26,266 bases of DNA, taken from Pirellulaceae bacterium. GTDB lineage: Bacteria > Planctomycetota > Planctomycetia > Pirellulales > Pirellulaceae. This document shows, in pieces, positions 21,367-23,045 of the stretch. The notes beneath the pieces are model-generated. The model saw only the letters and a program-made list of their open reading frames with translations. It did no database searches and was not told where the DNA came from. The DNA lies in contig JADLDX010000994.1 of NCBI GenBank assembly GCA_020846515.1, positions 1 through 26,266 of the forward strand, read 5' to 3'. Both the position numbers and the translations under genes were made by a program. The stretch's first letter is position 1; each line of letters starts with the position of its first letter.

Positions 21367-21399
21367 TTGCTGTCGGCTTTCAGTCTTAAAATTCAAATG

Positions 21400-21431
21400 C
21401 GACCGGTTGGGTTCCAACTGGTCGTATTTTT
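21400..21431 (+). terminator. Rho-independent terminator after rpsI
   Basis: CGACCGGTTGG (21400-21410) pairs with CCAACTGGTCG (21414-21424) around a GTT loop, with one mismatch, and is followed by TATTTTT. It begins 34 bases after the rpsI stop. Confidence 0.85.
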
Positions 21432-21451
21432 GTTTGGTGCTTCGTGTCGAA

Positions 21452-21569
21452 CGGGAGGCCGACGCTCCGGCGGAGGCAAGCCGCAAAGCGCGACTGATTG
21501 GCCATGTCGGTTGGTGATGTTCATGGCACATGCGGTCCGCGATTGTAGAACAGTTGTCCTCAACTGTTC
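21452..21569. repeat. GGGAGGCCGACGCTCC unit plus GAACAGTTG hairpin
   Basis: CGGGAGGCCGACGCTCC (21452-21468) starts a unit of about 90 bases whose later part (TTGGCCATGTCGGTTGG and CATGGCACATGCGG) recurs at 22321 and 22461 in the same orientation. It is followed by a perfect hairpin, GAACAGTTG (21548-21556) and CAACTGTTC (21561-21569), with a four-base loop. No coding frame is supported here. Confidence 0.8.
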
Positions 21570-21628
21570 CGGCGTAGCATGCGTCCTTCGAGGTCACGTT
21601 GGATTGTGCCGGACGTGGCTTTGGTCGC

Positions 21629-21652
21629 AATAAATAGACCTGACCCCTTTTT
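21629..21652 (+). repeat. AAATAGACCTGACCCC repeat, copy 1
   Basis: A 24-base sequence with the core AAATAGACCTGACCCC followed by a T run. An identical copy in the same orientation lies at 22749-22772. I recall this type of motif near REP-associated transposases in other bacteria, but none is in this window. Confidence 0.8.
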
Positions 21653-21692
21653 CGACACACGCCGCAAAGAAGACAGCAGTTGGAAACAATTA

Positions 21693-22194
21693 GTCCTGTA
21701 AAGCTGTCATTTCATTCGCGCATCGATCAATCGAATAAACGCCCGGCATCCATCCAACCGGGTGCGCTCGCATCGAATGGTTTTTACGCCAACGGCGTTA
21801 GATTCCATAGCCCGGGGTTCGCGGCAACGCCGCGTACCCCGGGTTCGTGATGACACCGGCGTTGAACACCCCACCGGGGTTTTACAATGTCGCGCTGTCC
21901 GCGTACCAATCATGCGTCATACGCAATCGACCATGCCCACCGACCGATGGTCCAACCCCGTTGGGGTATTTACGTTCGGTGTGGGCCGCGACGTGTCGGG
22001 GACGAATCGGTAGGGCGGGCCGCCGGTACCCAGGGTACGCGGCTACGCCGCGAACCCTGGGCTAAGGAATCTAACGCCGTTGGCGTAAGTGCCATGGGTG
22101 GATTCGTTTATTTGCCTCCACGAAAGTTCAATCGATCTCGTCAGGTTGCTACCCAAAAGATACATGAGGCTCGCAAATGACAGCTTTACAGGAC
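21693..22194. mobile_element. MITE-like element with perfect 20-bp terminal inverted repeats
   Basis: GTCCTGTAAAGCTGTCATTT (21693-21712) recurs as its exact reverse complement at 22175-22194. Further out, CAGTTG (21677) and CAACTG (22206) also pair, and internally 60-base arms at 21784-21843 and 22030-22089 are near reverse complements (about 53 of 60 positions). Each arm is itself palindromic (GGTTCGCGGC-AACGCCGCG type). The element is about 500 bases, has no credible transposase frame, and looks like a non-autonomous palindromic element. The central part holds an ACCGGGGTTTTACAATG / CCCCGTTGGGGT segment. No clear target duplication was seen at the ends. Confidence 0.8.
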
Positions 22195-22275
22195 AACGTT
22201 CGGGACAACTGCCCTAACACCTCAACTCCACAATTATAACCGCGATACGCGAACACATTTGGTATGGATGTTATT

Positions 22276-22745
22276 CGGGAGGCCGACGCTCCTGTGGAGG
22301 CGCGCCGCAAAGCGAGATCGATTGGCCATGTCGATTGGTTATGCGCATGGCACATGTGGTCCGCGCAAGAGAACGACCCGAGCGGCATGGATAATCGGGC
22401 GGTAGGCACGCTTGTCTCCGCAGGAGCGTCGACCTCCCGGATGCCGCAAATCTCGCCTTATTGGCCGTGTCGGTTGACCATGTTCATGGCACATGCGGGC
22501 CACGCAAGAGAACGACCCGAGCGGTATGGCAGATCGGTAACGCTGTGAAGCATTTTAGAAGCGGAACGGCGCAAGCCGTCCGGTATATCCCGGTAGTTAT
22601 AGGAACCGGAGGGCTTGCGCCCAACCGCTACAAATGCCGGATTTCGCGAGCAAACATGCTTCACAGCGTTGGCAGATCGGGTGATTGGAACGCTTGTCTC
22701 CGCAGGAGCGTCGACCTCCCGGCACGCTGCAAAGCGCGATGGCAG
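22276..22745. repeat. Tandem array of about 135-bp repeats with GGAGCGTCGACCTCCCG cores
   Basis: A forward CGGGAGGCCGACGCTCC lies at 22276-22292; reversed cores GGAGCGTCGACCTCCCG lie at 22423-22439 and 22705-22721. Shared blocks, in order, are CATGTCG(A/G)TTGG, CATGGCACATG, CAAGAGAACGACCCGAGCGG and CGCTTGTCTCCGCAGGAGCG, present two or three times. The second unit is interrupted by the element at 22539-22670. Related to the unit at 21452. No gene was found. Confidence 0.8.
22539..22670. mobile_element. 132-bp palindromic element inserted in a repeat, with flanking direct duplication
   Basis: AACGCTGTGAAGCAT (22539-22553) is matched by its exact reverse complement at 22656-22670. Inside, GGCGCAAGCCGTCCGG and CCGGAGGGCTTGCGCCC form a long hairpin. 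The sequence TGGCAGATCGG flanks it at 22527-22537 and again at 22670-22680, consistent with a 10-11-base target duplication. The uninterrupted version of the host repeat is present nearby (22380-22440), which shows the insertion point. Confidence 0.85.
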
Positions 22746-22748
22746 CCA

Positions 22749-22772
22749 AATAAATAGACCTGACCCCTTTTT
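22749..22772 (+). repeat. AAATAGACCTGACCCC repeat, copy 2
   Basis: Same sequence and orientation as 21629-21652. Its T run abuts the stop codon (22772-22774) of the small gene that follows on the minus strand. Confidence 0.8.
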
Positions 22773-22984
22773 TAGAAACGCTCGAGTTCGAGCGAACTGA
22801 GCATCTCTTCGGTCTGCTTGCTGATGGGGACGACTGGCGTGACGTTGACTTTGGTGCGCTTGAGCTCTTCGATCTGGGCGGCCATGCGCTGCAACAGGTT
22901 CGCGATCTCCGTGCCTGCGGTTTCGCCAACATGCACGTTTAAAGCTTTGCGAGCTTGATAACTTAAGCCGAGATTGGTGGTCAT
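22772..22984 (-). CDS. Small protein of unknown function downstream of glmS
   Basis: This encodes 70 residues, ATG at 22984 (the longer frame up to 23092 overlaps glmS and is not used), ending in TAA. MTTNLGLSYQARKALNVHVGETAGTEIANLLQRMAAQIEEL-type composition suggests an amphipathic helix or short coiled coil followed by a less structured tail (about 47-70). No family was recognised. It is 61 bases downstream of the glmS stop, so probably in the same transcript. A weak AGGG precedes the start. The codon pattern and predicted helicity support a real gene, but this is a judgement. Confidence 0.65.
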   Translation of the reverse strand: MTTNLGLSYQARKALNVHVGETAGTEIANLLQRMAAQIEELKRTKVNVTPVVPISKQTEEMLSSLELERF

Positions 22985-23045
22985 GACAAAAGACCCTGTA
23001 GGTTGAGGGATAGTGTTATTCGACAGAGTGTTACTCGGCTGAGCT

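Follow-up and report, generated by a model that had tools for sequence, protein, structure and literature searches.

A probable MITE with IS4-type ends and an inverted pair of REP-like sequences in an intergenic repeat of a Pirellulaceae bacterium

How a short inverted-repeat element came to lie inside one unit of a repeated sequence, and which enzyme could have moved it there, is the question raised by an intergenic region of a Pirellulaceae bacterium. The window, by which we mean the whole stretch of DNA that was analysed, comprises 26,266 nucleotides of contig C994 (JADLDX010000994.1) from a genome assembly of 6.48 Mb in 1089 contigs that is 81% complete. The element is situated between the ribosomal protein S9 gene and a gene whose GlmS-like product has SIS and GATase domains, the two genes being convergent, and no open reading frame (ORF) of at least 120 amino acids was found within 21661-23045.

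The element, its insertion site and its target duplication

The original prediction, made from the letters of the window, had described a 132-bp element at 22539-22670. The element exists, but its true span is 134 bp, with one more base on each side (Table 1), and it has no genes of its own. Its perfect 15-bp inverted termini, AACGCTGTGAAGCAT and ATGCTTCACAGCGTT, were found as described, each once in the window (at 22539 and 22656), and the hairpin core was likewise recovered: the single-strand DNA fold of the element had a z score of -9.2, and none of 200 shuffled sequences folded as well. Comparison of the window with Rfam gave no family at its gathering score.

The region from the S9 gene to the GlmS-like gene (21367-23045) is a repeat mosaic in which a 90-nt host repeat occurs three times. 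When the flanks of the element were joined with one duplication removed, 110 of 131 positions were identical to the unoccupied neighbouring unit, with one gap (84%). Because the joined flanks align to this neighbour, the comparison supports the view that the target was one unit of the host repeat, entered by insertion. The pair of sites before and after insertion that had been proposed for the window stands to this extent, but the neighbour is a diverged paralogue and not an identical empty site. The insertion with target duplication is further upheld by exact 9-bp copies on both sides. Other repeats are also found in this region: a 68-nt inverted pair (21777-21844 and 22028-22095) is nested in a perfect 20-nt inverted pair (21693-21712 and 22175-22194), and the minus-strand 21-mer AAAAAGGGGTCAGGTCTATTT is present at 21632-21652 and 22752-22772, flanking the repeat-rich stretch on both sides. 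A third copy of this 21-mer stands beside a RAYT gene of the same genome (L114, 1020-1040). It includes GGGGTCAG, a sequence compatible with GGGGWSAS, the motif reported at the ends of tyrosine-transposase elements (PMC3733652).

Table 1. Coordinates of the element and its host repeat in the window.
Feature	Position	Strand	Basis
Unoccupied paralogous host repeat unit	22321..22450	+	84% over 131 positions to joined flanks
Interrupted host repeat unit (two parts, 22460-22537 and 22681-22733)	22460..22733	+	
Left copy of target duplication, 9 bp, GCAGATCGG	22529..22537	+	Sequence, family frame
Whole element (probable MITE), 134 bp	22538..22671	+	Outermost bases T 22538, G 22671
Left terminal inverted repeat, perfect 15 bp	22539..22553	+	Sequence
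REP arm 1 (foot GAAG 22558-22561; hairpin GCGGAACGGCGCAAGCCGTCCGG 22561-22583)	22558..22583	+	Pairing, foot counts, conservation
Linker between REP arms	22584..22605	+	Mean divergence 3.9% among 28 copies
REP arm 2, inverted (foot GTAG; hairpin GCGGTTGGGCGCAAGCCCTCCGG on minus strand)	22606..22631	-	Pairing, foot counts, conservation
Spacer from REP arm 2 to right end, overlapping arm 2 foot	22629..22655	+	Mean divergence 4.7%, 28 copies
Right terminal inverted repeat, perfect 15 bp	22656..22670	-	Sequence
Right copy of target duplication, 9 bp, GCAGATCGG	22672..22680	+	Sequence, family frame

The predicted duplication of 10-11 bp was not borne out, the repeated sequence being 9 bp long. The motif TGGCAGATCGG, which had been noted on both sides of the element, does occur there, exactly twice in the window, at 22527 and 22670. 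Its right copy starts at the final base of the terminal repeat, and therefore the 11-bp figure includes bases of the element. It had also been asked whether TGGCAGATCGG belongs to every host unit; it does not, being confined to the two flanks of the element.

The element is one of many in its genome. We obtained 40 matches at 93-100% identity together with two partial ones (the best 40 of 177 candidates scored), and the 23-mer of the left end occurred 61 times with at most three mismatches, whereas a backward control occurred 0 times. The search of related genomes suggested in the original prediction gave no full-length element in 39 relatives, and short matches to the hairpin core in 5 of the 39. 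Among 69 loci examined in the own genome, 27 were without one recognised end (contig ends or damage) and 42 had both, one of these 42 being without a flank. Some copies are longer (174-217 bp), with additional hairpin units. The mean divergence from the consensus was 2.5% in 28 full-length copies, a count that excludes L057 and 13 longer copies, and divergence among the copies was near-star (ratio 0.94).

Duplication frames of 6-12 bp were tried on these copies with the element ends shifted by -1 to +3. In the 41 copies with both flanks testable, an exact 9-bp duplication was present in 21, including the window copy, and a duplication with at most one mismatch in 28, compared with 0.06% and 0.43%, respectively, of 1640 mismatched flank pairs used as a control. 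Duplications of 10, 11 or 12 bp were ruled out, no such frame giving 8 exact copies. Copies without flanking duplications, named beforehand as a challenge to the prediction, do exist to the extent that 13 of the 41 had 2 to 9 mismatches in the 9-bp frame. Some of these misses resemble slight displacements within repetitive targets and others resemble altered ends (L057, L078 and L080, whose left ends are altered and which were scored as misses). Exact duplications thus amounted to 51%, against 63% predicted from the divergence of the copies. On the right, the base just outside the inverted repeat was G in all 41 copies; on the left it was T (21), C (19) or A (1). The target preference leaned to CCYNNNRGG, which is loosely palindromic. 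The same 9-bp frame applied to 75 elements from other genomes gave 21 exact duplications and 18 with one mismatch, the control of 5550 pairs giving 0.29% and 1.42%.

The element is short, has terminal inverted repeats and no coding capacity, makes a fixed-length duplication across many loci, and has ends in common with an autonomous insertion sequence, which is found in another species (L180, described below) and not in the own assembly. Since it is one of dozens of copies with fixed 9-bp duplications far above the control, the element is, as judged from its sequence features, a MITE. MITEs, IS4 elements and REPINs are all established classes. The duplication is real, but to call it rare evidence for small palindromic repeats was an overstatement, as the ends identify the element as a MITE and duplications of this kind are known from MITEs.

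The inverted REP-like core

The first reading had overlooked that the core consists of two REP-like sequences in inverted orientation and that the same ends are present in many planctomycetes. Both arms are hairpins whose stem contains an internal loop and is closed by a GCAA loop, with GAAG or GTAG as the foot. Matches to the REP pattern numbered 171 in the own genome, part of them outside the element, versus 0-4 in each of 39 relatives. Across 155 arms of the own genome the foot was GTAG in 75 and GAAG in 68, and hairpin pair 7-18 was C-G in 77, G-C in 75 and unpaired in 1; pair 4-20 in 47 arms at other own loci was G-C in 38 and T-A in 9. Judged by these counts, each hairpin maintains its own pairing. 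The fit was less close in 208 arms from other genomes, of which 154 had a TTAG and 11 a GTAG foot, pair 7-18 being unpaired in 29. GTAG-foot hairpins in inverted pairs and at high copy number in the own genome are features of REPs and REPINs, but the entire element is not classed as a REPIN, because it has both inverted ends and a larger target duplication. The own genome also has a second repeat family without the MITE ends, observed at eight loci (L102, L106, L107 and L109-L113), each with one GTAGCGTAACGGCGCAAGCC REP and at least one tandem GAAG REP.

The REP arms are more conserved than their surroundings in two sets of copies. In the own genome, 13 of 1288 arm sites were changed versus 38 of 1315 sites in linker and spacer (Fisher p = 6e-4), two subfamily sites being excluded and sites in related copies not being fully independent. 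Among 28 elements of the type found in SM50, Stieleria and TBK1r, a set in whose selection REP arm 1 was used and arm 2 was not, divergence was 2.9 and 3.4% in the two arms and 1.4 and 2.4% in the ends, compared with 17.7% in the spacer and 17.9% in the linker. We infer that selection acts on the REP arms, which probably aid survival or spread of the element, since they are more alike among copies than the adjacent DNA. Rather unlikely, in our estimate, is the alternative that the arms are functionless and owe their low divergence to chance, to gene conversion between arms or to the selection of copies. The use of the element as query speaks for it, as do the role of arm 1 in assembling the second set and the partial dependence of sites, but the unselected arm 2 is equally conserved. 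In addition, pair 7-18 is not the same in the two arms of one own element, both of its bases having changed, and since gene conversion between arms would erase such a difference, conversion is disfavoured.

Shared ends and the partner transposase

When the genome collection was scanned for the element end where it does not continue into the interior seen in the own genome, at least 120 stretches were returned; the counts are lower bounds, the pattern having been designed to miss some end contexts. By title these were planctomycetes or 'bacterium' bins, save three (Poseidonia, Cocleimonas and Ruminococcus). Among the matches listed, 81 elements outside the own genome had the same ends, at least three of these rows being probable duplicates of one locus (L219/L348, L258/L343 and L269/L345). 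Of the 81, 45 had REPs of one of three types as an inverted pair, and 4 had one intact REP arm, their sequences suggesting that a further element had entered the other arm. The other 32 were without a REP pair of the types tested, including all 15 fetched from G006 and 5 of G022/HKST-UBA33, and REP arms are therefore dispensable for movement. The three REP classes are GGCGCAAGCC in the own genome, GCGAAASTCGCAGA in R. maiorica and CCGAATTC in G023: R. maiorica has seven elements with the unrelated second type, one with the first type and one with none, and the single element of G023 has the third. Many REP-bearing elements are 129-132 bp long, with one of the REPs near an end and some 25-35 bp of spacer at the opposite end, and a TBK1r element (L212) has a REP array between its ends. 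In L186, L187, L254 and L270, one REP arm is split by another inverted-repeat element with GGGCTGTCGATTTA-type ends, which suggests insertion inside an inserted element. A separate MITE burst was observed in G006, of the same genus (L331-L345), with near-identical ends, CAACGCTGTGCAGCA in most matches listed, and a core that is a long hairpin without a GTAG REP pair.

The original proposal that the element moves in trans, there being no transposase nearby, is borne out as probable: none of 8 ORFs scanned, among the 37 of at least 120 amino acids in the window, matched a transposase family. Pattern and family searches, which a diverged or unassembled partner could escape, gave no transposase gene with the ends of the element in the 81% complete own assembly. 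The four DDE_Tnp_1 genes of the own genome had at best one 13/16 match to the 16-base end in their loci, a pattern that excluded the MITE interior gave five matches, all within MITE copies, and the search for genes like that of L180 returned only weak matches to other IS4-type genes.

A candidate partner was found among loci L151-L300 in an uncultured Pirellula MAG. At this locus, L180, perfect element ends, identical to those of the window element over 18 bp, stand 1.6 kb apart and enclose a 517-codon open frame (486 amino acids from ATG), and the insertion has a target duplication matching at 8 of 9 positions. The protein scored 56 bits with Pfam DDE_Tnp_1, above the cut-off, and 87.6 bits with the NCBIfam IS4 model NF033592 (IS4_1), below the cut-off of 115; comparison with solved structures gave no transposase at E <= 1. 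It has DDE spacings of 99 and 100 and a full YREK motif, YKMRWLIEVEFRGLK. The IS4 family is defined by D(60-110)D(100-150)E and YREK motifs, and its IS4Sa subgroup by ends CA------T, a length of 1150-1750 bp and repeats of 8-10 bp, as given in the part of the source available (PMC2266710). The IS4 motifs are thus present in the protein, and with ends CA------T, 1600 bp and a 9-bp duplication L180 is in the range of IS4Sa.

These features point by analogy to mobilisation of the window element in trans by an IS4-type enzyme. A transposase of a family other than that of L180 is an improbable mobiliser. The own assembly is without an L180-like gene, the link consists of one complete element and the similarity of ends, and G006, which is 98% complete and has a large related burst, has as its sole homologue a 33% match with different ends. 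Against another family stand the 18 identical end bases, the fitting duplication length, and MITEs of G022 derived from such an insertion-sequence end, whose initial 77 bp are 78-80% identical to the end of L180. Moreover, G029 has a 36% homologue whose ends are related and whose 9-bp duplication, read from its flanks, is exact.

A RAYT gene is present in the own genome (NF047646, 174 bits; C184; L114, 1188-1800), where several REPs of a different type, GTAGGCCGGAACAAGCGTAGCG, lie beside it. Flanks of RAYT-family loci from relatives included the REP of the element in none of the 30 loci fetched, five relatives having more RAYT-family matches than were fetched, and a one-query search of the ORFs of L121-L350 gave matches only at loci fetched for RAYTs. 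That the element is a REPIN moved by RAYT, an HUH single-strand transposase, its terminal repeats being a pre-existing target palindrome entered by REP pairs, is very improbable. The REP form of the core speaks for it, as do the RAYT gene of the own genome, the REPs of the same class outside the element, and the REP dimers reported within palindromes in Anabaena variabilis (PMC3733652). Against it, 28 of 41 copies have their duplication beyond the terminal repeats, enzymes of the IS200/IS605 type give no larger target duplication (PMC2817692), the own RAYT has a different REP beside it, and the REP of the element was absent from the flanks of all 30 fetched loci of relatives.

Proposed mechanism and relation to known systems

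Taken together, our data suggest that the element is probably a MITE that combines IS4-family insertion-sequence ends with a core made of an inverted REP-like pair (BIME/REPIN-like) and that is mobilised in trans by a DDE transposase. Such a transposase would bind the Y-AACGCTGTGAAGCAT ends, a step modelled on established IS4 biology, and would attach them to the target at a CCYNNNRGG-like site whose strands are cut 9 bp apart, whereupon repair of the gaps would create the 9-bp duplication. A burst of copies in the own genome may then have been followed by independent decay of each. Both REP arms would be carried inside the element and would probably promote its survival or spread, candidate roles being transcriptional insulation, service as a RAYT substrate, and folding by which the two ends meet; of the first two, insulation, which would render insertions tolerable, seems a little likelier than recognition by a RAYT. 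A more far-reaching idea, which we put forward tentatively, is that the element is a hybrid of two working modules, IS4-type cut-and-paste ends and REP arms still recognised by a RAYT, so that MITEs would serve as vehicles of REP pairs and the REP type would be exchanged in a constant frame as hosts and their RAYTs change.

The route that takes REP pairs to new bacterial loci is not settled, and a REP-carrying MITE with a 9-bp duplication, whose REP arms are better conserved than the adjoining DNA, offers a concrete and testable one. Identical ends around differing REP types in several genomes allow the parts that changed to be compared with those that were kept.

Several known systems resemble the element in part. 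L180 agrees with published IS4Sa in ends, length, duplication, DDE spacings and YREK motif, as far as the available part of the source describes them (PMC2266710), and the window element shares the ends and the duplication length. It differs in having no transposase gene; L180 itself lies under the NCBIfam cut-off, and its subgroup is a matter of resemblance, not of a tree. With GTAG REPs and REPINs or BIMEs, as described in the available parts of three sources (PMC3733652, PMC3116915 and PMC2817692), the element has in common short inverted hairpins, a GTAG or GAAG foot and many copies per genome. In contrast, its pair is enclosed by terminal inverted repeats that are accompanied by 9-bp duplications, none of the RAYT loci examined had this REP, and the foot in other genomes is mostly TTAG. 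GTAG-15 dimers of A. variabilis are located in long palindromes, and the enclosing palindrome was not found without dimers; those dimers belong to another phylum and have other sequences, and the accessible text gives neither duplication nor transposase for them (PMC3733652). The present element suggests that published REPs inside palindromes could be re-read as possible composite MITEs. QMITE2 of Coxiella burnetii is a MITE with direct repeats of 7-9 bp, truncated copies of which are said to be REP-like, but its ends are 23-29 bp long and the part of the source at hand describes no GTAG REP pair (PMC10969869). The open-licence literature yielded no account of REP pairs in IS4-type MITEs or of such MITEs in planctomycetes, which is weak evidence of absence. 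Compared with these systems, the element apparently brings known pieces together in a new combination.
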